Positions 938 to 19,300 of a DNA stretch of 39,747 bases are shown here, one piece after another. The first letter of the stretch is position 1; the number at the start of each line of letters is the position of its first letter. Both the position numbers and the translations under genes were made by a program. The stretch covers positions 1 through 39,747 of the forward strand of contig CAIKNO010000188.1 of assembly GCA_903828805.1 (NCBI GenBank). The letters are read 5' to 3'. Source of the stretch: an uncultured Sandaracinus sp. (GTDB taxonomy: Bacteria > Myxococcota_A > Polyangia > Polyangiales > Sandaracinaceae). The notes beneath the pieces were generated by a model. The model did not search any database. It was not told the DNA's origin and was given only the letters and a program-made list of their open reading frames with translations.

Positions 938-2148
938 GCGCCCGCCCGGTCCTCGCGGGACGAACGCGGAGCGAGCGTCGTCGGGCGCGTCGCGCGGCCT
1001 TCAGCCTCATCGAGGTGATGGTCGCGCTGACCATCGCGGCCTTCGTCATCTCCACCGTCTACACGCTGGGCGGCGCCTCGGCGCGGCACTTCCAGCAGCA
1101 GCAGCGGGTCGGTCAGCTGCAGCTCGGCACGCGCCTGGCGCTGGATCGGTTGCGCCGCGACATCGAGCGTGCCGGGCTCCACGCGTCGCCGGACTCGAAC
1201 CTGGAGCGGCTCTGCGGGGCCGGCGCGGCGCGGCGCGTCCAGGCGGTCCAGCTCTTCGACAACGACGCGGGTTCACGCGCGGCGCTGAACGGGTATGGCG
1301 GGGCCGCCAGCAACACGACCACCGAGGCGGACCGGCTGCGGCTCTTCGGGAACTTCTACACGTCCGACACCTACCTGGTGCGCTCTCTGAATGCGACCGG
1401 CACCGCGGCGTTCCTGCAGACGAACTGGCAAGGCTTCCGCCGCAGCTTCACGGACCAGGCAGCGACCACCGAGGCCACGTTCGTGCTGGACACCCAGGCG
1501 GTGCAGGACGTGTTCCGGATCGGGCGGATGATCCACATCTCGACCCTCACCGGGAACCACTTCTTCGTCACGATCAACAACGTGACGATCAGCTCGGGGA
1601 CCGACGTCAGCATCGGCTTCACGCCCGGCCTCGGCATCGGCGGCGCCTGCGTCGGCGGGCTGGGGGAGGGTGCGCTGATCGCTCCGATCGGGGAGATCGA
1701 GTACGCGATCGCGGCGGCGGCTCCCGAGGCCATGCTGGCGCCCCGCGACGTCGCGGTCACGGGTCCGAACACCGCGCTCGTGCGGCGAGAACTGGACGGG
1801 GCGGGGCTCGTCCTCGCGCAGCGCACCGTGCTGGAATATGCGGTGCATTTCGATGTCGATGCCGTCGTGGACACGTCGGCCGGCATCGGGCTGCCGCCGG
1901 TCCTCGCGGTGGTCCGCGACAACGCCGCGCAGGTGTCGGTCACGGCCCGGCCGAGCCGGGTGCGCGCGCTGCAGGTCGAGATCGGGGCCAGGACGCCGGA
2001 CCAGGAGCCGACCTTTCCGTGGGTGGCGCCGATCGCGGGGGCTCCGCTCTCGCGCTTCCGGGTGTTCTCGGACCGGCGCGGCGCGGCGCGGGTGCGCACG
2101 GGTCGGCTCGAAGTGAGCGTGCCCAACCTCGTCTCGAGGGGGATCTGA
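934..2148 (+). CDS. pilW: PilW-like minor pilin
   Basis: Prepilin motif AAFSLIEVMVALTIAAFVISTVYTLGG and LALDRLRRDIERAG; ATG at 934 overlaps upstream stop (ATGA). Confidence 0.8.
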   Translation: MSARPVLAGRTRSERRRARRAAFSLIEVMVALTIAAFVISTVYTLGGASARHFQQQQRVGQLQLGTRLALDRLRRDIERAGLHASPDSNLERLCGAGAARRVQAVQLFDNDAGSRAALNGYGGAASNTTTEADRLRLFGNFYTSDTYLVRSLNATGTAAFLQTNWQGFRRSFTDQAATTEATFVLDTQAVQDVFRIGRMIHISTLTGNHFFVTINNVTISSGTDVSIGFTPGLGIGGACVGGLGEGALIAPIGEIEYAIAAAAPEAMLAPRDVAVTGPNTALVRRELDGAGLVLAQRTVLEYAVHFDVDAVVDTSAGIGLPPVLAVVRDNAAQVSVTARPSRVRALQVEIGARTPDQEPTFPWVAPIAGAPLSRFRVFSDRRGAARVRTGRLEVSVPNLVSRGI

Positions 2149-2837
2149 TGCTGCCCACCGTCATGCATGCGTCCCGACCGTCGACCCGTCGTCTCCGCCG
2201 TCGCGGTGCGGCGATGCTGGTCGTGATGATGCTGCTGCTGATCGTCACGGCGACCGCGAGCTTCGCCATCCACGCGACCAGCGTCGAGCTGCGCTCCACC
2301 GGTCATGCCCGGCAGCGGATGCAGACGCGCTATCTCGCGGAGGCCGCGCTCGTCAGCACGATGACGATGCTCGAGCAGTCCGGCCCCGAGCCGCTGGGCA
2401 TCGCCCTCGAGCGGTCGACCTCGGGGGCGGTGGTGCGGCGGCTCGCCCCCGAGGAGCCCCCGATGGCGGCGAGCACGGGCAACCACCGCGTGGAGATCAC
2501 GAACTTCTCGGGCTCGGCTGGGGTCGTCGGGGCACCGATCGACACGACGGTGGGCCGTGAGTCTCTGGGCGTCGGCATGGGCTACACGCCCACGTTCGTG
2601 GTCGACGTCAACGATGGGTATTCCTTCACGGGCGCGATCGCCGGGCAGCGCGCCGATGGACTCGGAACGCTGCAGTACCTGGTGGCGACCTACACCGCGA
2701 GGGGCCGCACGCTGCCCCCGAGCGACACGTATTCACCGACGACGGCCTCGCTGGCCGCGACCCTGCGTCGCGGCACCCACGAATCCGCGATGAACGCGCG
2801 GGGCATCGGGATCAGCGGGCCGACGAGGCGACGATGA
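2148..2837 (+). CDS. pilX: PilX-like pilus assembly protein
   Basis: N-terminal RRRGAAMLVVMMLLLIVTATASFAIHATSVELRSTGHARQRMQTRYLAEAAL typical of PilX; TGATG overlap with PilW-like ORF. Confidence 0.7.
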   Translation: MLPTVMHASRPSTRRLRRRGAAMLVVMMLLLIVTATASFAIHATSVELRSTGHARQRMQTRYLAEAALVSTMTMLEQSGPEPLGIALERSTSGAVVRRLAPEEPPMAASTGNHRVEITNFSGSAGVVGAPIDTTVGRESLGVGMGYTPTFVVDVNDGYSFTGAIAGQRADGLGTLQYLVATYTARGRTLPPSDTYSPTTASLAATLRRGTHESAMNARGIGISGPTRRR

Positions 2838-5800
2838 GGAAGGCGGACACGCGTATGCGAATCTCTGCAACGAAGCTGGTGGCGTTCTCCCTCACGTGGG
2901 CGGCGTGGATGTCCGTCGTGACACCGCCATCGGCGCACGCGCAGTCGGCGCCCGACATCCGGAGCATTCGCCCGTCCGTCATGCTGCTGGTCGACACCTC
3001 CGGGTCGATGCAGTACCGGGCCGGCTCGTCGAGCGGCGTGCTGCCGACGTGCACCGGCAGCGGCACGGGCTTGAACGAGCGAAGCCGCTGGGCGACCGTG
3101 CTCGAGGCGCTGACGGGCAGCTGGCCGACGTACACGTGCTCGTCCGACAGCCGGCGCACGTATACCGGCGCGGCCGACCAGTTCTACCCGCTGCCGCACT
3201 TCGTGGTGCCGGCCACGGGCCAGCAGACCGACGGCATCCTCGACACGTACCTCAGCCGCGTGAAGTTCGCGCTGATGACGTACGACAACCTCTTCGGCGT
3301 CCGGCGGACCGGTGACCCCGACACCTACCAGTACATGGTGCCCCGCACCGTGTTCGAGGCGGCCGGGTTCGCGGGTTCGTTCAGTCAGCTCGCGCCGGGC
3401 GACTTCTCGTACGGCACCCCGCGCGTGCTGGGCTTCCCGGGCTGCGCCGGCCAGTACATCGTCGACGCCGGCGCGCGCAACAACAGCGCGGGCGCGGGCG
3501 CCCTCATCCCGTTCGCGAGCGACGTGGCCGTGGTCGGGCAGACCGCGGAGGACCTCAACGCGCAGATCCAGACGCAGCTGATCTCTTCGCGGCCCTACGG
3601 CGCGACGCCGACCGCCGCGATGCTCGATGATTTCCGCTATTTCTTGCAGAACGACGCCTCGGTGCGCGCGGGCGCCGGCGGTGACCCGCTCGCGGCCTGC
3701 CGGTCGCGCTTCGCGGTGCTGCTCACCGACGGACAGCCGAGCGATCCCTACCGCGACAGCATGAACTGTGCGGCCTCGGGTCCGACCTGCCCGGCTGGTG
3801 GGTGCTCCTGCCCGTACGAGACCTCGAGCACGATCGCGGCCGACCTGTGCCGCTTCAACCCCGCGACGGGCAAGTGCGCGGGCACGCTCGCCGGCCTCTT
3901 CGTGGTCGGGTTCGACGTCGGCGATCCGGCGGCGCAGGCGGCCCTGAACGACCTCGCGAGCCAGGGCGGCACGACGCGCGCGCTGATGGCGACCGACCGG
4001 CTCACCCTGCTCGCGGCGCTCTCGTCGGCCCTCGATCAGGCCGCCCCCGGCACGACCACCCGGACGAGCCCCGCCTACGCGACCGGCTCGCAGTCGACCG
4101 GCTCGGGCAGCCAGCACGTGTTCAACTCGGGCTTCCAGGTGCCCGCGTCGAACGCGCCCACCGGCACTCCGTGGAGCGGCGTCCTCGACCGTACGCGCTA
4201 CGTCTGCGACGCCTCGCTCGTGCCGCAGCGCCAGCCGCTCGATCCCGCGCAGGACAGCTTCCACACGATCCTGAACGCCCGCAATCTCACGTCCTCGCCG
4301 CGCGTCCTCTACACGGTGGCGACCAGCACGCCCGCGCAGATGACGGGCGTCGTCACCAGCACGACCGAAGACCTCGCCCCGATCTCCGCGCTGCCGAACG
4401 TCGGCGTGGGCACCGGCACGGGCTGCACCTCGGGTGCCGGCGCGGCCCCCGCGACCGCGACGCGGCTCGCCCTGAGCCGCTTCGAAGCGAGCAACACCGC
4501 CTTGACCCCGGACCACTTCGGCGTGCCGACCGGTGGCACCACGGCCGACCGCACGGCGGCCCGCAATGCGATCATCGACTGGGTGCACGGGCGTCCGGGC
4601 ACCACGCGCGCGACGAATCGCTTCGGCGACATCTACCACTCGACCCCGGTGGTCGTCGGTCCCCCTCGGGCTGACCTCGCCGACGAGGGGTTCAATCTGT
4701 TCCGCCGTCGGGCGGACGTCTCGACGCGCCCCACGGTGGTGTACGTCGGGACCAACGACGGCGTTCTTCATGCGTTCGCGGCCGAGGCGATCACGACGCC
4801 GGCCGGTCGGGCCATCACGGCGGGCGAGGAGCTCTGGGGCTTCGTGCCGCCGAGCGTGGTCCCGCGACTGCGTGCCTCGATGGCAGGCCGCCAGGAGCTG
4901 CTCGACGGAACGCCCGTCGTGCGCGACGTCTTCTTCCGGCGCGTCCCGGGTGATGCGGTCACGGCCAATGCCGCGAACGCGGGCTCGTACCGGACGGTGC
5001 TGGTGATGGGCCAGCGCGGGGGCGGCAGCGCGTACTTCGCGCTGGATGTGACCGACCCGCTCAACCCCACGTTCCTCTGGCAGTTCACGAGCCAGAACAT
5101 GGGTCAGACGTACGCGAGGCCGGCCGTCGGTCAGTTCCTGGTCGAGGTCGACGGCGTGGTGCAGGAGCGCGCGCTGGCGTTGCTGCCGGGCGGGCGCGGC
5201 GCGGCCGACGCGGCGCTCACGGCCTCCACGGGCGCGCTCGGCTGCGTGCCTCAGGGTGCCGGAGTGGCACCGGTGTCGGGCAACACCACCACCAGCCGCG
5301 CGCGCCAGCGCTGCTGGAACTGCCAGGGTCGCGTGCTGCACTGGGTCGACATCGCGACGGGCAAGGCGATCCAGACCCTCGACAGCCGCACCTTCAACGC
5401 GCCCCTCACGGGCGGCATCTCGCTGTATCCCGGCGACACCGGTACGGTGGCGACCCGCGCGTTCGTGACCGATGAGGACGGTGTGGTCTGGCGCGTGGAC
5501 GCCAGCAATCCTCGCTATTCCGCCGTGACGAACGGTTGGTCGGCGCGCCCGTTCCACGACATCTTCTGGGACGGCTCGGCCGCCAGCGGCGTCGTCGGCA
5601 TGGAGCCGCCGGTGATCTCGACCGATTCGAACGGTCAGGTCGTGGTCCTTCAAGCGACCGGCAACGCCGACGTGCTCGACAACGGCGGGGTGCTCAATCG
5701 GGTGGTCTCGCTGACCGAGAGTCTCGCTTACTCGACGGTCGCCGGGGCGACGGTCGGAGTGCCCACGACCGCGATGAACTGGGAGATCCGGCTGCGTCCG

Positions 5801-7483: not shown

Positions 7484-7993
7484 ATGGGCTGGGTCCGCGT
7501 CGCGGGGCTGCTCCTCGTGGGCTGGGGCGGCGCGTCCTGGGCCGGCGGCGTGCATGCGGAGGCGGCCGCCCTGCGTGCCAGGATCGCGCGGGTCGCCGAG
7601 GCGGCGGAGCGTGCGGGCGTGAGCGCCGTGCTCGACCAGGCGGTTCGGGCGCTCGTCGAGGCGGACCGCTGTCGCGTGCACGCCGACCCGGGCGGTGCAG
7701 AGCGGGCCGAGGCCATCGCCGAGGCTGCGGTCCTCGCGACCGAGCGGCGGGTGGCGGCGACACTGGCAGTGACCGCGCGTGACGCCGCGCGCGCGCGATG
7801 GGTCCGGCAGCAGGAGATGGCGGCGGAGGCGCGTGCTGCGCTCGTGCGCGCCCGGGCGGAGCGTGCGCGCCTCGAGGCGGAGGCGACGTCGTCTCGCGAA
7901 GGGCCGCGACAGGACACGGTGTCGCCAGCGGGCACGTCATCGCCGGCGTCCGCGGTGCCGGCAGGCGCGCCCGTGCCCGAGGGTGAGTCGTGA
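7484..7993 (+). CDS. Secreted Ala-rich coiled-coil protein
   Basis: Signal peptide MGWVRVAGLLLVGWGGASWAGGVHA followed by Ala/Arg/Glu-rich helical sequence; overlaps next gene by GTGA. Confidence 0.6.
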   Translation: MGWVRVAGLLLVGWGGASWAGGVHAEAAALRARIARVAEAAERAGVSAVLDQAVRALVEADRCRVHADPGGAERAEAIAEAAVLATERRVAATLAVTARDAARARWVRQQEMAAEARAALVRARAERARLEAEATSSREGPRQDTVSPAGTSSPASAVPAGAPVPEGES

Positions 7994-9099
7994 ATCGGTG
8001 GGGTCTCTCGCTCGTGCTCCTCGCGCTCGCGGGGTGCGGGGGCGCGTCCGTCTCGGTGGGCGCCCGCGGGGCGACGACGGTCGAGACGTCGTCGATCGAG
8101 ACGTCTTCGATCGAGGCCCTGCGCGGAGACGCGCCGGAGCTGGTCGCGTCGGCCGAACGGGCACGGGATGCGGCGGAGGCCCTCGAGGCCCGAGGCGAGG
8201 CGGCAGCCGCGTCGGACCGTCGTACCGAAGCGCGGCTGCTCGAGGACGCGGCCCTCGCCGAGCACGAGCGCGCCGACGCCGTGCGGGCCCAGGCCGAGCT
8301 CGAGCAGCAGACGATCGCCTCGGAGGAGCAGACCCTGCGGGACAGGGCGGAGCTCGACGCCCTCGAGGTCACCGTCCGGCGCGCGGCCGCGGCCCGCGTG
8401 GCCCGCGAGGAGTTGCAACGCGCGCTGGTGCGTGCGGAGCAAGACGAGGCGGCGCGTGCGTCCCGCCGCATGCGACATTCGGCGGGCGATGCGGGGGAGC
8501 TTCGCCGCGCCGCTGCGCTGATCGCCGACCACGCCCGGTGGCTATTGCACGCGGCCAGCGCGATGGGTGCGCCGGCGGACGAGGTCGCCCGGGTCGCTGT
8601 CCGGCTGGAACCGTCGGCCTCGGCCTCGGGGGCCTCGGCGCTGAGCTCCGCCGAGGAAGCGCGCCGCGACGCGCAGGCACTGCTCGGCGCCCGTCGTCGA
8701 CTGCAGCCGGTGCTGACGGTCGAGGACGTGTCGTCGCTGTGCGAGGCGGCCGAGCTCGAGGGCTTCACGGTCGCTCGCCTCGAGCGTGGGCTCTCGGTCG
8801 AAGCGCTCGACGTCTTTCGTGCCGGGTCGGAGGTCTCGAGCCCGCTCGGAAGGGTCCGGCTCCGCAGGCTCGCAGCGCTCCTCGTCTCGTACCCGGTGGG
8901 GTCGATCGTCCTCGAACTCGACACGACGAGCGCCCGCGAAGAGGCCCTGTCCGCGCGCAGGGCCGACGTGGTGCGCGCCACCCTGGAGGCTGGGGGTGTG
9001 GCCCCCGACCGCACGACCGTTCGGGTCATGGCCGCCGCGACGGATGCGCCTGACGGGCGTGTCCGGGTCGTGTGGACGGCGTACGTGCCGACCTCCTGA
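7990..9099 (+). CDS. Lipoprotein with helical region and degenerate OmpA-like C-terminus
   Basis: Lipobox LLALAGC; C-terminus RRLAALLVSYPVGSIVLELD...ALSARRADVVRATLEAGGV resembles OmpA LSxRRAxxVxxxLxxxGV. Confidence 0.65.
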   Translation: MNRWGLSLVLLALAGCGGASVSVGARGATTVETSSIETSSIEALRGDAPELVASAERARDAAEALEARGEAAAASDRRTEARLLEDAALAEHERADAVRAQAELEQQTIASEEQTLRDRAELDALEVTVRRAAAARVAREELQRALVRAEQDEAARASRRMRHSAGDAGELRRAAALIADHARWLLHAASAMGAPADEVARVAVRLEPSASASGASALSSAEEARRDAQALLGARRRLQPVLTVEDVSSLCEAAELEGFTVARLERGLSVEALDVFRAGSEVSSPLGRVRLRRLAALLVSYPVGSIVLELDTTSAREEALSARRADVVRATLEAGGVAPDRTTVRVMAAATDAPDGRVRVVWTAYVPTS

Positions 9100-9172
9100 G
9101 CCGGGAGGGCCTGCTCGACCACGCGCCGTGGGCTCCGCCGTCGTCCGCGCGTGGGTCTCGTCGCGCCCGACC

Positions 9173-10228
9173 TCAGCGAAGAATGGCGCGGACGTTCCGG
9201 GGAAGGAGTGGAGCCGACGCGAGCAGCGGGGCCATCGGCGCGCTGCTGAGCGTGTGAACGAAGAGCAAACGTTTGCCGCGTCGGGTCGTGCGTGCCTGGG
9301 CAAGGAGCGCGGCCATGGCCTTGGCGGTGTAGGACGAGTCGAGCGCCAGCCCCTCCGTTTCGAGGGCGATGCGTGCGGCTTCACGGCTGGCGCCCGACGC
9401 GACGCCGTAGCCTTCGCCGAGAAATCCCTCCTCGATCGTGAGGTTGTTCGCAGCGGTCTCGCCGACCGAGGGAAAGCGGTCGTCGATCTCGCGAAGCCGC
9501 TGGATCACGCCCCTCGAAAGGGCTGTCAGCATGGCCTTCGGGACGAGGTGCCGAGGGGTGACCCGGACCGCCACGACCTCCGTCATGACGCCCGCGGCGG
9601 CGAGGCCTACCGCCAGGCCCGCAGCCGTCCCTCCACTGCCGAGCGCGACGACGACCGCATCGGGCTCCGGAACGACGCCCGAGTCGAACTGACGACCGAG
9701 CTCGAGGCCGCCCTCGATCCACCCGAGGACCCCCGAGGCGTCGCTTCCGCCCGGGCCGATGACGAACACCTTCCGGCCCGAGAGACGCAGCTTCGCCACC
9801 ACCCCGGCCAGGGCGACGGGCAGGAGCGAGTAGCTCCGGATCGGGTGAAGCACCGCCCCCGCGGCGAGGTCCGCGCGGAGGTTGTCCTCGACGTGGGCGC
9901 TCTGCTCCTGCGGCATGACGATGGCGTGCACCTCGAACCCGTGGGCCCGCCCGTACAGCGCGGTCGCCAGGACGTGGTGCGAGCCCGCCGCGCCGGTCGT
10001 CACGAGGGTGTCGGCGCCCTCGGCACGCGCCTGCCCGAGCAGGAACTCGAGCTTGCGCACCTTGTTGCCGCCGTACAGCGAAGCGGACAGGTCGTCACGC
10101 TTGCACCACACCTCGGCACCCGCGATGGCGGAAAGCCGGGGCATCGACGATGTCGCGGTGGGAAACGTGCCGAGCGGGATGTGCGGAATGGACGAGAGGT
10201 TCGGCCAGCGTTCGACCAGGAGCGTCAT
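9173..10228 (-). CDS. D-cysteine desulfhydrase / ACC deaminase-family PLP enzyme
   Basis: WCKRDDLSASLYGGNKVRKLEFLLGQA (PLP lysine motif), TTGAAGSHHVLATA, GSGGTAAGLAVGL. Confidence 0.85.
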   Translation of the reverse strand: MTLLVERWPNLSSIPHIPLGTFPTATSSMPRLSAIAGAEVWCKRDDLSASLYGGNKVRKLEFLLGQARAEGADTLVTTGAAGSHHVLATALYGRAHGFEVHAIVMPQEQSAHVEDNLRADLAAGAVLHPIRSYSLLPVALAGVVAKLRLSGRKVFVIGPGGSDASGVLGWIEGGLELGRQFDSGVVPEPDAVVVALGSGGTAAGLAVGLAAAGVMTEVVAVRVTPRHLVPKAMLTALSRGVIQRLREIDDRFPSVGETAANNLTIEEGFLGEGYGVASGASREAARIALETEGLALDSSYTAKAMAALLAQARTTRRGKRLLFVHTLSSAPMAPLLASAPLLPRNVRAILR

Positions 10229-10272
10229 CGGGTGGCTGCAATGTACTCCCCGCGCGGCTCCGCCCGGGTCCC

Positions 10273-10317
10273 AAAAAAGCGCCGAGGCCGGCCTTCCATC
10301 GCGGAAGCCGGCCTCGA
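10273..10317 (-). terminator. Rho-independent terminator for the downstream end of the OmpA gene
   Basis: Minus-strand reading GAGGCCGGCTTCCgcgatGGAAGGCCGGCCTCggcgcTTTTTT: long GC stem then six U. Confidence 0.85.
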
Positions 10318-10369
10318 GGCGGGATCGGAGATGCGTGCACCCCCTGGGCTGGCCCAGGGAGGGCGCCGG

Positions 10370-12757
10370 TCACTCCTCGGTGCGCTGCTCGATGATGAAC
10401 TGCACGCGGCGGTTGCGCGCGCGGTTGCCGGCCGTGAGGTTCGGCACGAGCGGTCGGGCCTCGCCGTAGCCCTGGGCGGTCAGGCGACCGGCATCGACGC
10501 CGGCGGTGATCAGCCACTGGCGGACGGCGTCGGCGCGCCGCTGCGAGAGCTGGAGGTTCGCGTCGTCGTCGCCGTTCGAGTCGGTGTGGCCCTGGATCTC
10601 CACCCGCAGAAGCTCGGGATGCCGGAGCAGGGTGTCGGCGAGCTCGCTCAGCAGGGCGGTGCTCTCCCCGAGGATGTCGGCGCTGTCCGTGCCGAAGTTC
10701 ACCTGGCGACGGATGGTGATCTCACGGGCGCGAAGGGTGACGAGCGAGCGGCTCGGGCGCGCCACGATGATGAGCTCGGGGGTCGTCGTCTCGCGGACGT
10801 GGACGAGGAAGCTCTCCTGCGCGAGGAGGTATCCGGGCACGTCGATGCGGGCCATGTAGGTCCCGGGGGGCAGGCCTTCACGGGTGAAGTGGCCGCTCGA
10901 GTCGGTCGTGGCGGCGAACGCCTGCGGTCCGGTGATCTGGATCTGAGCGCCGGAGATCGGGCTGCCACCGTCGCTGTGAAGCGAGCCGCGGATCGCGCCG
11001 ACGCGCGGCCGTGCAACCATCTCGCAGCGGAGCTGAACGTCGCCGCCCTCGGCGGGGATCGTCGCGTTGCAGCTGCCGTCGTTGTAATCGGGGTGCGAGA
11101 GCTGCACGGCCACGTTGCCCGGATCGAGCTCGTAGGTCGTGAAGCCACCGGTCGCGCCGGTCTGCTGGGCCGTGAGGTCACGGCCGACGTAGGCCACCGC
11201 GGCGCCGGAGACCGGCGTGCCCGAGCCCTGCTCGACGACGGTGCCGAGGACGCGGCCGCGGACCGGCGGCGGGATGCGGACCTCGACGCGGCGCTCCACT
11301 TCGCGCTCGATGCGCTCGACGCGCGGCACGGTGTCGAAGGCGTAGCCGAGACCGAGGATGACATCGTAGGGCGCATTGCCCGCGAGCTCGCGGACGAACG
11401 TGCTCATGCCGGACGTGCCGATGTCGGCGGCGAGCGTGATGGAGAGGCCGCGGACCGGCGGCAGCACGCGCGCGCCGAGGGTCAACGTGCTCGGGAACGA
11501 GTTGAAGCCCTGCCGCGCGAGGCAGCCGTCGTCGCCGGCGACCGGGCGGCTGCCGTCGGTCGGATCGGGGAGGTAGAGGCAGTTGTAGCCCTGGCGGTTC
11601 ACCGGCGTGGAGAGGGTCCACTCGAGGATCGGACTGATCGTGAAGTCGGTCATGACCTCGAGCGGTGCTTCGAGGCCGATGCCGATGTGGAAGAAGTCCG
11701 TGCGGTTGATGCCGAGCGAGTAGCGCTCGAAGCGGGTCAGCAGCTGGCGGGTCTCGTCCGCGAAGGGGCGCGCGGCGTCGGCGCCGGTCGTCGGCAGTCC
11801 GGCGTAGCGGGCCTGCTCGACGTCGTTGGTGAGGTTGGAGCTGTTGTCGACGTAGTACTGGAGGTTCAGGCGCGCGATGAGGGGGATCGCGCTGTCGAGG
11901 TTGCGCAGGTCGGCGGTGAGGTTTCCGCGGATGCCGACCGAGGTGCTCCCGAGCACGAGGCCGATGTCGCCGACCGTGTTGAGGAGCGACAGGGACAAGT
12001 CACCGCCGACCGTGAGGAAGGGCAGGATGTGGTAGTAGCCCTTCACGCCGAGCCGCGAATCCCCGAGCACCTGGAAGAGCTGGGGCTGGGCCGCGGGGTC
12101 GCTCGTGGAGTTCGCGTAGCTCGCGATGGCGCCGTACAGCTCGAGGAAGTCCCACGGGCTCCAGCTGACCGAGAGCGAGCCGCCGATGTGCGAGTGGTCG
12201 GCGCCCGGCGTCAGGAAGCTGTTCGCGGAGAAGAAGTCCGTGAGCAGCTGGACCCGGAAGCTCTCCGACGGGCCCGAGCCTGCATCGACCACGTGGATGC
12301 CGCCGACCGAGCCGAACCAGGAATTGTGAAGGGGGAATCGTCGGGTTCGCCAGGCTTCGCTCGCACGATCGCGGAGCAGGTCGCCCGTCCGAACGCGGGC
12401 ATCGCCCTCGGCCGGAACCGGCGTGCCGCGGCCCGGCGACGGGGCGGCCTCGGGCGTCTCCTCGGACGTCTCCTCGGCGTCGCCGCCGAACTCGTCCGCG
12501 TCGTCGTCCGCCTCGACCTGCTGGGCCGCGCGGGGTGCGGTGGTCGTCGCGCGGGGCGCGGCGGTCGTCGCGCGGGGCGCGGCGGTCGTCGCGCGGGGCG
12601 GCGCGGTTTCGACCGCTTCTTCGAAGGCGTCGTCGCCGAACTCGTCGTCCGACTGGGCGCGCGCGACGGTCGAACCAAGGGCCAAGGGGCTGGCGACGAA
12701 AGCCAGCGCCACGAGGCAGCGGACGAATGAGATCGTGATCGAGCAGGGCAGACGCAT
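10370..12757 (-). CDS. OmpA-family outer membrane protein with carboxypeptidase-regulatory-like repeats
   Basis: C-terminus VEIQGHTDSNGDDDANLQLSQRRADAVRQWLITAGVDAGRLTAQGYGEARPL; GTVVEQGSGTPVSGAAV and GSLHSDGGSPISGAQI; signal peptide. Confidence 0.9.
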   Translation of the reverse strand: MRLPCSITISFVRCLVALAFVASPLALGSTVARAQSDDEFGDDAFEEAVETAPPRATTAAPRATTAAPRATTTAPRAAQQVEADDDADEFGGDAEETSEETPEAAPSPGRGTPVPAEGDARVRTGDLLRDRASEAWRTRRFPLHNSWFGSVGGIHVVDAGSGPSESFRVQLLTDFFSANSFLTPGADHSHIGGSLSVSWSPWDFLELYGAIASYANSTSDPAAQPQLFQVLGDSRLGVKGYYHILPFLTVGGDLSLSLLNTVGDIGLVLGSTSVGIRGNLTADLRNLDSAIPLIARLNLQYYVDNSSNLTNDVEQARYAGLPTTGADAARPFADETRQLLTRFERYSLGINRTDFFHIGIGLEAPLEVMTDFTISPILEWTLSTPVNRQGYNCLYLPDPTDGSRPVAGDDGCLARQGFNSFPSTLTLGARVLPPVRGLSITLAADIGTSGMSTFVRELAGNAPYDVILGLGYAFDTVPRVERIEREVERRVEVRIPPPVRGRVLGTVVEQGSGTPVSGAAVAYVGRDLTAQQTGATGGFTTYELDPGNVAVQLSHPDYNDGSCNATIPAEGGDVQLRCEMVARPRVGAIRGSLHSDGGSPISGAQIQITGPQAFAATTDSSGHFTREGLPPGTYMARIDVPGYLLAQESFLVHVRETTTPELIIVARPSRSLVTLRAREITIRRQVNFGTDSADILGESTALLSELADTLLRHPELLRVEIQGHTDSNGDDDANLQLSQRRADAVRQWLITAGVDAGRLTAQGYGEARPLVPNLTAGNRARNRRVQFIIEQRTEE
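12537..12599. repeat. 21-bp tandem repeat, 3 copies, in the OmpA gene
   Basis: gcggYggtcgtcgcgcggggc x3; encodes (APRATTx) linker repeats. Confidence 0.85.
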
Positions 12758-15169: not shown

Positions 15170-16000
15170 ATGTCCCTGCCCGACGACGACGCATCGGCCT
15201 CGCCCCTCGAACTGGCGTTCGATCCTCGACGGAACCGGTCGGCCCAGCCGGCGGGCCATCGGACCGGGCCGCCACCGGACCACGAAGACGGGCAGTCGGG
15301 GATCGGCGTGCCCGGCGACCCGCGCACGATGAGCGGGGCCCTGCGACGGGCGCTGCGCCCCCTGCTCGAGGGGACGTACCTCGAGATCAAGCAACGAAAA
15401 GAGTGGGGCGAGGTCCTGACCGGGTGGGAGGCGCGCAACCGCTACCACGTCCGGGGCGGCGAGGGTCACACGCTCGTGGAAGCCGAGGAGGAGGGGCACG
15501 GGTGGCTCGACGCGGTGATGCGGAACCTGAACCCGTTCCGGAAGATCTCCCTCGAGTGCGTGACGGACAACGGAATCGTCGCGCTCCGGCTCGAGCGCCC
15601 GTGGACGTTCTGGCTCACGCGCGCGGACGTGTACGCATGGGATCAGCGCGTGATGGGCGTGCTCGTCCAGCGCTTCACGTGGCTTCGCCGGGTGCTCGAG
15701 ATCCAGAGCACGGACGGACAGGTGCTCGCCCGCATCGAGGGGCCGTTCTTTCGTCCCTGGACGTTCCTCGTGCAGAAGGACGGCCTCGAGGTCGGCGCCA
15801 TCCGCAAGCGTTGGGGTGGCGTCGGTCGCGAGCTCTGGACCGATGCCGACACGTTCACGCTGGAGCTGCGGCCCGCGCTCACATGTCCTCGGGTTCGGCA
15901 GATGCTGCTCGCGGCGACCCTGCTGATCGATCTGACCTGGTTCGAGAACGGACGCCGCGGCCAGCGCCACGGCGTGATGGGGCTCTTCGGATCGCGCTAG
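15170..16000 (+). CDS. Phospholipid scramblase-family protein
   Basis: YLEIKQRKEW..., NPFRKISLECVTDNGIVALRLERPWTFW, GVLVQRFTWLRRVLEIQSTDGQVLARIEGPFFRPWTFLV. Confidence 0.8.
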   Translation: MSLPDDDASASPLELAFDPRRNRSAQPAGHRTGPPPDHEDGQSGIGVPGDPRTMSGALRRALRPLLEGTYLEIKQRKEWGEVLTGWEARNRYHVRGGEGHTLVEAEEEGHGWLDAVMRNLNPFRKISLECVTDNGIVALRLERPWTFWLTRADVYAWDQRVMGVLVQRFTWLRRVLEIQSTDGQVLARIEGPFFRPWTFLVQKDGLEVGAIRKRWGGVGRELWTDADTFTLELRPALTCPRVRQMLLAATLLIDLTWFENGRRGQRHGVMGLFGSR

Positions 16001-16078
16001 CGCGAGGCGCGCACGACCCCGCGATGCGCGACCCCGCGCCTCGGGACCTCGGATGGCGCGAGACGTGCGCCGCGAGCC

Positions 16079-16765
16079 TCAGCCGTTGCTCTTCTGCACC
16101 GGGCGGAACGGATGGAGGAAGTTCGTCAGGCTCGACGAGTTGCGCGTCGACATCCACAACCGCCCTTGGCCCTGGAAGTTGCACACGAGCCCCTCCCCGG
16201 AGAGGAAGAGTCCCCGCAACCCGCCGACCTTCTGGACGGTGTACGAGAGACCGCCGGTGAACGCGACCACGTGGCCGGTGTCGCAGATGTACCCGCCGGG
16301 GCCGACGTCCACGGGGTGGATGCCTCCATACGAGGCGAAGAAGAGCGGGCCGGTGCCCGTGCACTTCAGCAGGAACAGGCCCTGCCCCGAGAAGAACCCG
16401 CGGGTGCCGCCCCACGCGGTGTCGAGCGTCACGCCCGGGGCGGCCCCGAGGTAGGCGCCCGAGTTCATGAAGACCGGCGTGCGCCCGTCCATGGACACGA
16501 CCTCCACGTCGCCCTCGGGGGCCGGCGCGAAGAACAGGCGCTGCCCGGCCGCGCTCGCGGTGAACGTGTTCTGGAACACGCTCTCGCCGCCGAGGGCTTT
16601 CCGCTTCACGGCGGCGAGCAAGCCGCCTTGCATCGAGGTCTTCATCTCGATGCCGCCGTCGCGTGCGACCATCGCCGCGGACTCGCAGACCATCTGCTCG
16701 CCGGGGGCGTCGAAGGTCACCTGGACCATGGTGAAATCAGGCTTCTCGAGGAGGTCGTAGCGCAT
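16079..16765 (-). CDS. AIM24 family protein (paralog 1)
   Basis: GGESVFQNTFTASAAGQRLFFAPAPEGDV, GFFSGQGLFLLKCTGTGPLFFASYGGIHPVDV, DTGHVVAFTGGLSYTV, LSGEGLVCNFQGQGRLWMSTRN. Confidence 0.88.
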   Translation of the reverse strand: MRYDLLEKPDFTMVQVTFDAPGEQMVCESAAMVARDGGIEMKTSMQGGLLAAVKRKALGGESVFQNTFTASAAGQRLFFAPAPEGDVEVVSMDGRTPVFMNSGAYLGAAPGVTLDTAWGGTRGFFSGQGLFLLKCTGTGPLFFASYGGIHPVDVGPGGYICDTGHVVAFTGGLSYTVQKVGGLRGLFLSGEGLVCNFQGQGRLWMSTRNSSSLTNFLHPFRPVQKSNG

Positions 16766-16817
16766 CGTCGGGTCTCTCCGCCGCGGGGAAGTCGAAGGGG
16801 CTGTTCGTGGAAGGCGC

Positions 16818-17519
16818 TCAGCCCCGGCGGGGCGGGAGCCGGCTGCCGACGGTGCGGCCATACTCCACGGGGTTTCGGGACTGGATCCAGATGCGGCCCT
16901 GTCCCTTGAAATGACAGACCAGACCCTCGCCCGACAGGAACGACGCGATCCAGCCGCCTCCGCTCTTGCCGACCGTGTACGTCAGGCCCGAATCCCACGC
17001 GACGAGATGCCCGGTGTCGATGACCAGGCTTCCGTCGCAGTCGAGCTGCGTGATGCCGCCGAACGCGCCGAAGAGGAGCTGTCCGGGGCTCTGGGCGGTG
17101 GCGCGCATGACGAACGCGCCCTCGCCGGAGAAGAACCCACGAAAGCCCTGGAGCTTGGTGTCCACCTGCACGTTCGGCGTCGCCGCGATGAACGAGCTCG
17201 ACGTGAGGTGATAGCCCTGCGGCGTCATCTCCACGACCTGCATGTCCCCGCAGAGCGCGTGCGCGAGGAGCACCTCGCCCGGGGTGTTCGTCGCGGTGAA
17301 GGTGTTCCGGAACCAGCTCTCGCCTCCGAGCACGCGCTTCAGGCCGCCGAGGATGCCGCCGAGCATTCCTCCGCCGGGCGCCTGGGGCATGCCCGACTGC
17401 ATCTGGATGTTCGGGGACATGCCGACCATGGCGCCCGACTCCGCGGTGATCTGCTCGCCGGGGTTCAGCAGGACGCGGGCGAGCGAGTGGGCAGGCCGGT
17501 AGCCGATCTCGATGTGCAT
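16818..17519 (-). CDS. AIM24 family protein (paralog 2)
   Basis: GEQITAESGAMVGMSPNIQMQ, LGGESWFRNTFTAT, DTGHLVAWDSGLTYTVGK, LSGEGLVCHFKGQGRIWIQSRN. Confidence 0.9.
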   Translation of the reverse strand: MHIEIGYRPAHSLARVLLNPGEQITAESGAMVGMSPNIQMQSGMPQAPGGGMLGGILGGLKRVLGGESWFRNTFTATNTPGEVLLAHALCGDMQVVEMTPQGYHLTSSSFIAATPNVQVDTKLQGFRGFFSGEGAFVMRATAQSPGQLLFGAFGGITQLDCDGSLVIDTGHLVAWDSGLTYTVGKSGGGWIASFLSGEGLVCHFKGQGRIWIQSRNPVEYGRTVGSRLPPRRG

Positions 17520-17565
17520 CTGGGGGTCCTCGTCGTGGCGGTCGGGAAACAGTTCGCGCGCGTGT

Positions 17566-18306
17566 TCACTGCGGCAGGAGCGGCGTGAGCCAGCCCACCA
17601 GCGAGTTCAGGTTCCTGGACTGCACGTAGATCTTCCCGGTGCCCTGGAACTCGCACACGAGGCCCTCGCCGCCCGCGACGAAGCCGAGCAGACCGCCACC
17701 CGCGGAGCGGATGTTCATCTGGAGGTCGCCCTCGTATCCGACGAGGTGTCCGTTGTCGACCATGAAGGGGCCTCGGACCTCGACGACCTGCGAGCCGCCG
17801 TAACTGTTGAACCACACGTCGCCGGTGCCCGTCACCTCGAGCATGAAGGCGCCCTCCCGCGCGAGGATCGTCTTCCATCCCCCGAACTTCAGGCCGACCG
17901 AGACGTCACCGACCGACGCGAGGTAGGCGCCGCTCGAGAGCACGAGGCGCTCTCCGGGCGCGAGCCTGCGGTGCGTGACCTCGCCGGCCATGCCCGGCGC
18001 GACCCACACGCTCCCGGGTGCGGTGCCGTGGAAGTGGTTGGTGAAGAAGCTCTCGCCTCCGGCGAGCTTTCGGATGAAGGCGAGACAGACCGCCACGAGG
18101 AACCCGAAGAATCCGGGATCGCGGCCGGCGCTCATCTTGACGTCCATGGTCAGATGAGACGATCGGGCGACCATCGCGCCGGCCTCGGCGCACAGCACCT
18201 GACCGGGCAGGAGGTCGACCCGCAGGAGTGCGAACGAAGGGCCGTGGGTGATCTGGTGGGCCACGCTGGCGCTACCGCCCTGGGGGACCATCGGGTGCTG
18301 GTTCAT
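17566..18306 (-). CDS. AIM24 family protein (paralog 3)
   Basis: GQVLCAEAGAMVARSSHLTMDVKM, LAGGESFFTNHFHG, VDNGHLVGYEGDLQMNIRSAGGG, AGGEGLVCEFQGTGKIYVQSRN. Confidence 0.9.
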   Translation of the reverse strand: MNQHPMVPQGGSASVAHQITHGPSFALLRVDLLPGQVLCAEAGAMVARSSHLTMDVKMSAGRDPGFFGFLVAVCLAFIRKLAGGESFFTNHFHGTAPGSVWVAPGMAGEVTHRRLAPGERLVLSSGAYLASVGDVSVGLKFGGWKTILAREGAFMLEVTGTGDVWFNSYGGSQVVEVRGPFMVDNGHLVGYEGDLQMNIRSAGGGLLGFVAGGEGLVCEFQGTGKIYVQSRNLNSLVGWLTPLLPQ

Positions 18307-18442: not shown

Positions 18443-19300
18443 ATGCGCAGGGCTCTTCTCGTCGGATGGGTGTTGTGGATGGGTCTCGGCGCCGGTTGCA
18501 CCGGGCGGACGGTGGTCGGCGGATCCGACGCAGGCCGTCGCGATGGGGGCGCGCCGCAGGATGCGGAGCCTCTCGATGCCGACCTCGGCGACGCGGGTCC
18601 GTCGGATGCCGCGGCGCCGCTCGCCGATGCGGGCAGCGCCCTCGACGCGGGCCGCCCGGACGCGGGCGCGGTGCTCGACGCGGGCCGCGCAGATGGTGGC
18701 CGCGCGGACGCGGGCGTCGGGACCGATGCAGGTCGGACGGACGCGGGCGTGCGGGACGCCGGCCCGCCGGATGCCGGCCCGCCGGATGCCGGCCCGCCGG
18801 ATGCTGGCCGTCCCGACGCCGGGGCCGTGGATGCCGGACCCACGATGCCCGGCGGTGACGTGGCGTTCCCGACCGACGTCTCGACGTCTTGCTACGCGAT
18901 GGGCGGGTGCATGCCGCTCGGCACGGGCGGGGGTGGGGTGCATTACGTCTCCGGCGACTCCCTCGAGGAGACGGTGACGTTCGCGGCCCCGTCGATCTCC
19001 GGCCTGTCTCTCTCCTTCGACATGGACGACCTGACGACGGGTTGCGCGGTCGGCGCCGTGAACACCTTCGCGGTGCTGGTGAACGGCACGCGGGTCGGGA
19101 CCTACTCCTTCACGTCCGCCCCCTCGGGCACCGCCGTGGGACGCACCTCCTTCAACGAGCGCTACACGTTCGCGTCGATCGCCGGCACCGGCGCGGGCGA
19201 CCGCTACACGGTGCGGTTCGAGGCGACCAGCACTGTGTGTCCTGGCGGTTCGTCGTGGAACTGGTTTGCGGGCGGCGTGGCCCGCGCCACCACGCCGTGA
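18443..19300 (+). CDS. Lipoprotein with Asp-Ala-Gly-Pro linker and C-terminal beta-rich domain
   Basis: MRRALLVGWVLWMGLGAGC lipobox; (DAGPP)n repeats; C-terminal domain with four Cys after the linker. Confidence 0.75.
   Translation: MRRALLVGWVLWMGLGAGCTGRTVVGGSDAGRRDGGAPQDAEPLDADLGDAGPSDAAAPLADAGSALDAGRPDAGAVLDAGRADGGRADAGVGTDAGRTDAGVRDAGPPDAGPPDAGPPDAGRPDAGAVDAGPTMPGGDVAFPTDVSTSCYAMGGCMPLGTGGGGVHYVSGDSLEETVTFAAPSISGLSLSFDMDDLTTGCAVGAVNTFAVLVNGTRVGTYSFTSAPSGTAVGRTSFNERYTFASIAGTGAGDRYTVRFEATSTVCPGGSSWNWFAGGVARATTP
18755..18814. repeat. 15-bp tandem repeat, ~4 copies
   Basis: gaYgccggcccgccg units, coding DAGPP. Confidence 0.85.

Follow-up and report, generated by a model that had tools for sequence, protein, structure and literature searches.

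AIM24 proteins are, to our knowledge, present in all domains of life, and we know of no agreed molecular function for them. The family (PF01987; TIGR00266), to which the structures 1PG6 and 1YOX belong, is carried by NCBI as one "hypothetical equivalog," whereas the locus described here holds three deep paralogs in a conserved operon. Yeast Aim24 is reported to form an assembly of ~400 kDa that is firmly bound to the inner membrane without a classical transmembrane segment and is required for MICOS stability (PMC3975624), and the Neurospora protein EOP-1 self-associates (PMC13075794). The yeast protein is a member of the same family but is encoded by one gene rather than three; the comparison spans domains of life, and functional equivalence would be by analogy. 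The three-gene form is also distinct from the singleton form common in Bacteroidota and from PA3696. According to a passage of PMC5822837 citing Anantharaman et al. (2012), AIM24 genes adjoin TerD in group I ter clusters.

The four-gene locus and its proteins

The window, i.e., the whole analyzed stretch of 39,747 nucleotides from an uncultured Sandaracinus sp., belongs to a draft genome of 6.03 Mb (815 contigs, 96% complete). The genes considered here are as follows:

15170-16000, plus strand: Scramblase/Tubby-like family protein, 276 aa (Pfam Scramblase PF03803, 1.5e-32)
16079-16765, minus strand: AIM24 position 3, last gene of the operon, 228 aa (AIM24 PF01987, 2e-58; position-3 tree group); paralog 1 of the sequence-only reading
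16818-17519, minus strand: AIM24 position 2, middle gene, 233 aa (AIM24 PF01987, 2.5e-59; position-2 clade, support 99/93)
17566-18306, minus strand: AIM24 position 1, first gene of the operon, 246 aa (AIM24 PF01987, 7e-52; position-1 tree group); paralog 3 of the sequence-only reading

The three AIM24/TIGR00266 genes are convergent with the Scramblase-family gene and are separated by gaps of 46 and 52 bp, values that the sequence-only reading had given correctly. Its assignment of the four genes to two families also holds, as all Pfam matches lie far above their cut-offs. Specifically, the three AIM24 proteins match Pfam AIM24 over their full length with 177 to 201 bits (cut-off, 25.7) and pass TIGR00266 with 180 to 208 bits (cut-off, 96.6), and the Scramblase PF03803 match reaches 113 bits (curated cut-off, 25.4). 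In the whole draft genome, no AIM24 gene was found beyond these three, and no second Scramblase gene. The shared motifs reported earlier are present, namely, GGES-F (as GGESVF, GGESWF, and GGESFF), the core motif (GHVV in one protein and GHLV in two), and the terminal GEGLVC motif; for the latter, the first position had been given as [LG] and should read [SG], the full pattern being [SG]GEGLVC-x-F-[QK]-G-x-G-[RK]-[LI]. Promoter and terminator scans yielded nothing useful.

Elsewhere in the window, a gene divergent from the AIM24 operon (18443-19300) encodes a lipoprotein-like product that has a long Asp-Ala-Gly repeat and no Pfam match, and the segment 934-9099, which features a pilin-type N-methylation motif and weak PilY1-like and CpaD-like matches, is probably a cluster of type IV pilus genes.

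The AlphaFold2 model of the position-1 protein was confident (mean pLDDT 88, pTM 0.83), and its fold matched 1PG6 and 1YOX with E values between 1e-16 and 1e-11; the best Foldseek result (E 1.3e-16, TMt 0.79) identified the AIM24 TRAP-like β fold. The position-2 protein was matched to AIM24 structures by sequence (2.4e-23), and the fold of position 3 is assigned by family match only. A hydrophobic segment in the position-1 protein had been read as a possible membrane anchor. The segment exists, with a best 19-residue Kyte-Doolittle mean of 1.78, and sits in a helix of 17 residues (65 to 81) whose region forms, in the alignment, an 11-residue insertion relative to position-1 proteins of other phyla and is common to most position-1 proteins of Myxococcota. 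The helices of the orthologs read like GFFAKLKAFFIALIRKI, are punctuated by Lys and Arg, and have a hydrophobic moment of about 0.5 to 0.6. Because charged residues lie within these ortholog helices, a transmembrane anchor is disfavored, although the copy in the window is more hydrophobic than its orthologs; the segment more likely forms a mostly amphipathic helix lying in-plane on the membrane. For the window's helix, given the value of 1.78, a membrane-inserted role may nevertheless apply.

Distribution and ancestry of the AIM24 triplet

The three AIM24 genes of the window lie on the same strand, in the order 1-2-3, and group position by position, the features that define a triplet here. Such triplets were found in ~20 relatives spread over many of the order's families. 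Gene order and strand are identical in relatives, and the proteins of each position group together. At least three AIM24 genes were present in 73 of 110 AIM24-positive Myxococcota genomes, and in those whose AIM24 coordinates were all listed the copies were consecutive, with the exception of G056, in which they were scattered. GTDB genomes were also searched with a family alignment, and the best 80 loci, ranked by likeness to position 2, were taken. At 78 of these 80 loci, the gene resembling the query was the central member of a same-strand triplet, a proportion that is neither a natural frequency nor a census because the loci were ranked by that likeness; the other two were single AIM24 genes, and in 2 of the 78 triplets position 1 was split into two frames. 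At least nine named phyla were represented (Myxococcota, Pseudomonadota, Bacteroidota, Spirochaetota, Planctomycetota, Verrucomicrobiota, Cyanobacteriota, Lentisphaerota, and Thermodesulfobacteriota), and the median domain-to-domain gaps were ~17 and ~24 nt. The AIM24 trio is an ancient bacterial operon, widely distributed and with a constant gene order in many phyla, which bears out the earlier view of three divergent paralogs in one probable operon. In Bacteroidota, 49 of 198 genomes carried AIM24, nearly always as a single gene, and AIM24 function is therefore not always dependent on a triplet.

In a tree of 60 proteins from 20 triplets, the genes clustered by position rather than by genome, requiring two label changes for the three positions, the minimum possible, versus 29 in shuffles. 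The position-2 clade was recovered across phyla with support of 99/93, and position 3 was weakly supported (68/53). Position 1 was not recovered as one clade; a single clade was not rejected (p-AU 0.20). When singletons and PDB sequences were added, position 1 fell into two groups, and two triplet subtypes may therefore exist.

Several individual loci deviate from the common pattern. Locus L027 of genome G004 (7961-10858) carries four AIM24 genes in tandem, with the third position duplicated, and genome G008 has four consecutive copies by count. Locus L041 of genome G030 (1891-4065) holds a degenerate triplet with three long branches and eroded GGES and GEGLVC motifs. Some taxon labels are doubtful; for instance, the lake MAG contig L116 carries a myxobacterium-like triplet, and its label, Klebsiella pneumoniae, is probably wrong.

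Genes neighboring the triplet

An M48 peptidase was the commonest neighbor of the triplet across phyla (~34 triplets). In 23 cases it immediately precedes the triplet in the same orientation, often overlapping it or lying within 30 bp, and in 11 it is encoded upstream in divergent orientation. The former arrangement is found in other phyla and the latter in some Myxococcota; altogether, at least six named phyla outside Myxococcota show the linkage. The linked proteases carry the motifs HExxH and NAFALPGG. Their N-terminal part forms a seven-strand domain with weak PH-domain matches; a long helix then spans a hydrophobic stretch and leads to a catalytic domain resembling that of BepA. The PH-like domain is predicted to be cytoplasmic and to be followed by a single transmembrane helix, with the catalytic domain probably in the periplasm. 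It shares the catalytic domain with M48 proteases of the BepA, LoiP, and HtpX type (3C37, 6AIT) but differs from them by the additional PH-like domain and transmembrane helix. No NCBIfam equivalog accommodates it, and its scores fall far short of the BepA and LoiP cut-offs. Loci with this uncharacterized M48 subfamily directly upstream of the triplet include L108, L124, L126, L130, L148, L149, and other non-myxococcal ones. In the open-license literature, the AIM24 family and its TerD association were known before, and no description of AIM24 triplets or of their M48 linkage was found; within that literature both appear to be new, and the Ter paper of Anantharaman et al. (2012) may already mention triplets.

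No M48 match was found in the draft genome of the window or in the flanks of its triplet, and the congener G001 has one match, remote from the triplet and without the N-terminal part. Likewise, no Sandaracinus-like or cyanobacterial triplet is adjoined by an M48 gene, and AIM24 triplets therefore function without the protease.

Two further neighbors were considered as partners. In the family to which the window belongs, the triplet is followed by a gene whose product looks secreted and carries a 5'-nucleotidase C-terminal domain (e.g., L024, 10184-12511); this gene was rejected as a fixed fourth gene, being conserved only in this family and some genomes of the same order, and in the window's genome it is located on another contig (C568). 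A class II ribonucleotide reductase (RNR) gene is divergent from the triplet in close relatives; because it lies ~13 kb away in the window, this arrangement probably represents plain synteny.

The Scramblase-family protein of the window is assigned by its Pfam match. With regard to the lipid-scrambling activity, Ca2+ site, and C-terminal membrane helix of PLSCR proteins, its hydrophobicity was computed and peaks at 1.08 (residues 237 to 255). We know of no lipid scrambling by bacterial Scramblase/Tubby-like members. A sequence search found no related solved structure, and the closest scramblases are ~43% identical. The GC3 of the gene (0.88) is similar to that of neighboring genes, and recent transfer is therefore not claimed.

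Alternative explanations and a proposed complex

The sequence-only reading had joined the scramblase and the AIM24 proteins in a single lipid-remodeling module. The genes are adjacent in the window, and eukaryotic members of both families are membrane associated; genes in convergent orientation, however, have no promoter in common. Among 284 Myxococcota genomes searched, Scramblase occurred in 36 and AIM24 in 110, and both were present in ~10, versus ~14 expected if independent. A further 33 scramblase loci were inspected, and no AIM24 gene lay within ~1.5 kb of any of them; in genomes with both families the two lay on different contigs wherever both coordinates were listed (for G194, which has both, the check covered AIM24 near the scramblase locus). 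When an identical set of 57 relatives was searched with both families, the other members of the window's family lacked Scramblase, though nearly all carry AIM24 triplets. No second genome with the adjacency was found where this was checkable. A joint module is thus rejected as highly improbable, and the scramblase gene is best taken as an unrelated, chance neighbor of the AIM24 operon. The neighborhood comparison proposed with that reading gave a divided result: co-occurrence with scramblase is not conserved, and the grouping of several AIM24 genes is, across phyla. Still less credible is the notion that the trio consists of recent tandem duplicates of redundant function. The genes are in tandem and belong to a single Pfam family, but the window's paralogs are only ~33 to 43% identical to the middle one, compared with 72 to 79% between orthologs in close relatives, and local duplication was seen only as the fourth copy in G004 and, by count, G008. 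The clustering of the trees by position rules out recent duplication for this triplet.

Two further explanations were considered. The adjacency of AIM24 and TerD reported in the cited passage of PMC5822837 would fit a Ter/TerD-type stress-response accessory in which AIM24 takes part in membrane-linked metal or envelope-stress sensing. The neighbors identified at triplets, however, were M48 peptidases, kinases, FHA proteins, RNR, and a 5'-nucleotidase-like protein; they included no TerD, in flanks that were not systematically scanned for it, and none of the window genes examined was ter-like, which leaves this explanation improbable. The M48 linkage, in turn, could indicate a proteolytic quality-control unit in which the AIM24 complex serves an Oma1/BepA-like membrane protease as adaptor or regulator, the window's lineage having lost the protease and kept the adaptor. 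The recurrent upstream position and the motifs and predicted domain architecture of the protease speak for it. Against it stand the window's genome, which yielded no protease match, and the Sandaracinus-like and cyanobacterial triplets without an adjoining M48 gene, and we regard it as possible but rather unlikely.

Our preferred reading, to which we give an even chance as a whole, is that the locus is a member of the ancient triplet operon, encoding a cytoplasmic hetero-oligomer that acts as a scaffold or stabilizer on the inner membrane, and that the scramblase is unrelated. The three genes keep their order, lie close together, have diverged deeply, and are retained jointly, all of which speaks for joint action of their products, with a hetero-oligomer as the simplest form; a cytoplasmic scaffold at the inner membrane is proposed because of the reported yeast Aim24 complex and EOP-1 self-association. 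By analogy with yeast Aim24, the three AIM24 proteins would assemble into one cytoplasmic hetero-oligomer, which the position-1 helix would hold against the inner membrane at its inner leaflet, and this assembly would scaffold or stabilize lipid domains or complexes in the membrane. An M48 protease, encoded in the same operon or divergently in many other bacteria, may control the AIM24 complex there, and the window's lineage would operate without it. Of the hetero-oligomeric membrane complex suggested earlier, an AIM24-only version is plausible, given the conservation of the triplet, and scramblase membership is dropped for lack of any conserved linkage.

More speculatively, triplets and the linked protease with its PH-like domain and transmembrane helix might constitute a bacterial system for inner-membrane organization and quality control, a prokaryotic counterpart of the mitochondrial Aim24-MICOS/Oma1 pair; we consider this quite improbable, and we know of no MICOS in these bacteria. 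In any case, one database label conceals three distinct AIM24 proteins. The triplet operon is carried by culturable bacteria (Sorangium, Enhygromyxa, Shewanella, Mucilaginibacter, and Flavobacterium), many of them with the linked membrane protease, and thereby offers a genetic handle on the AIM24 family.
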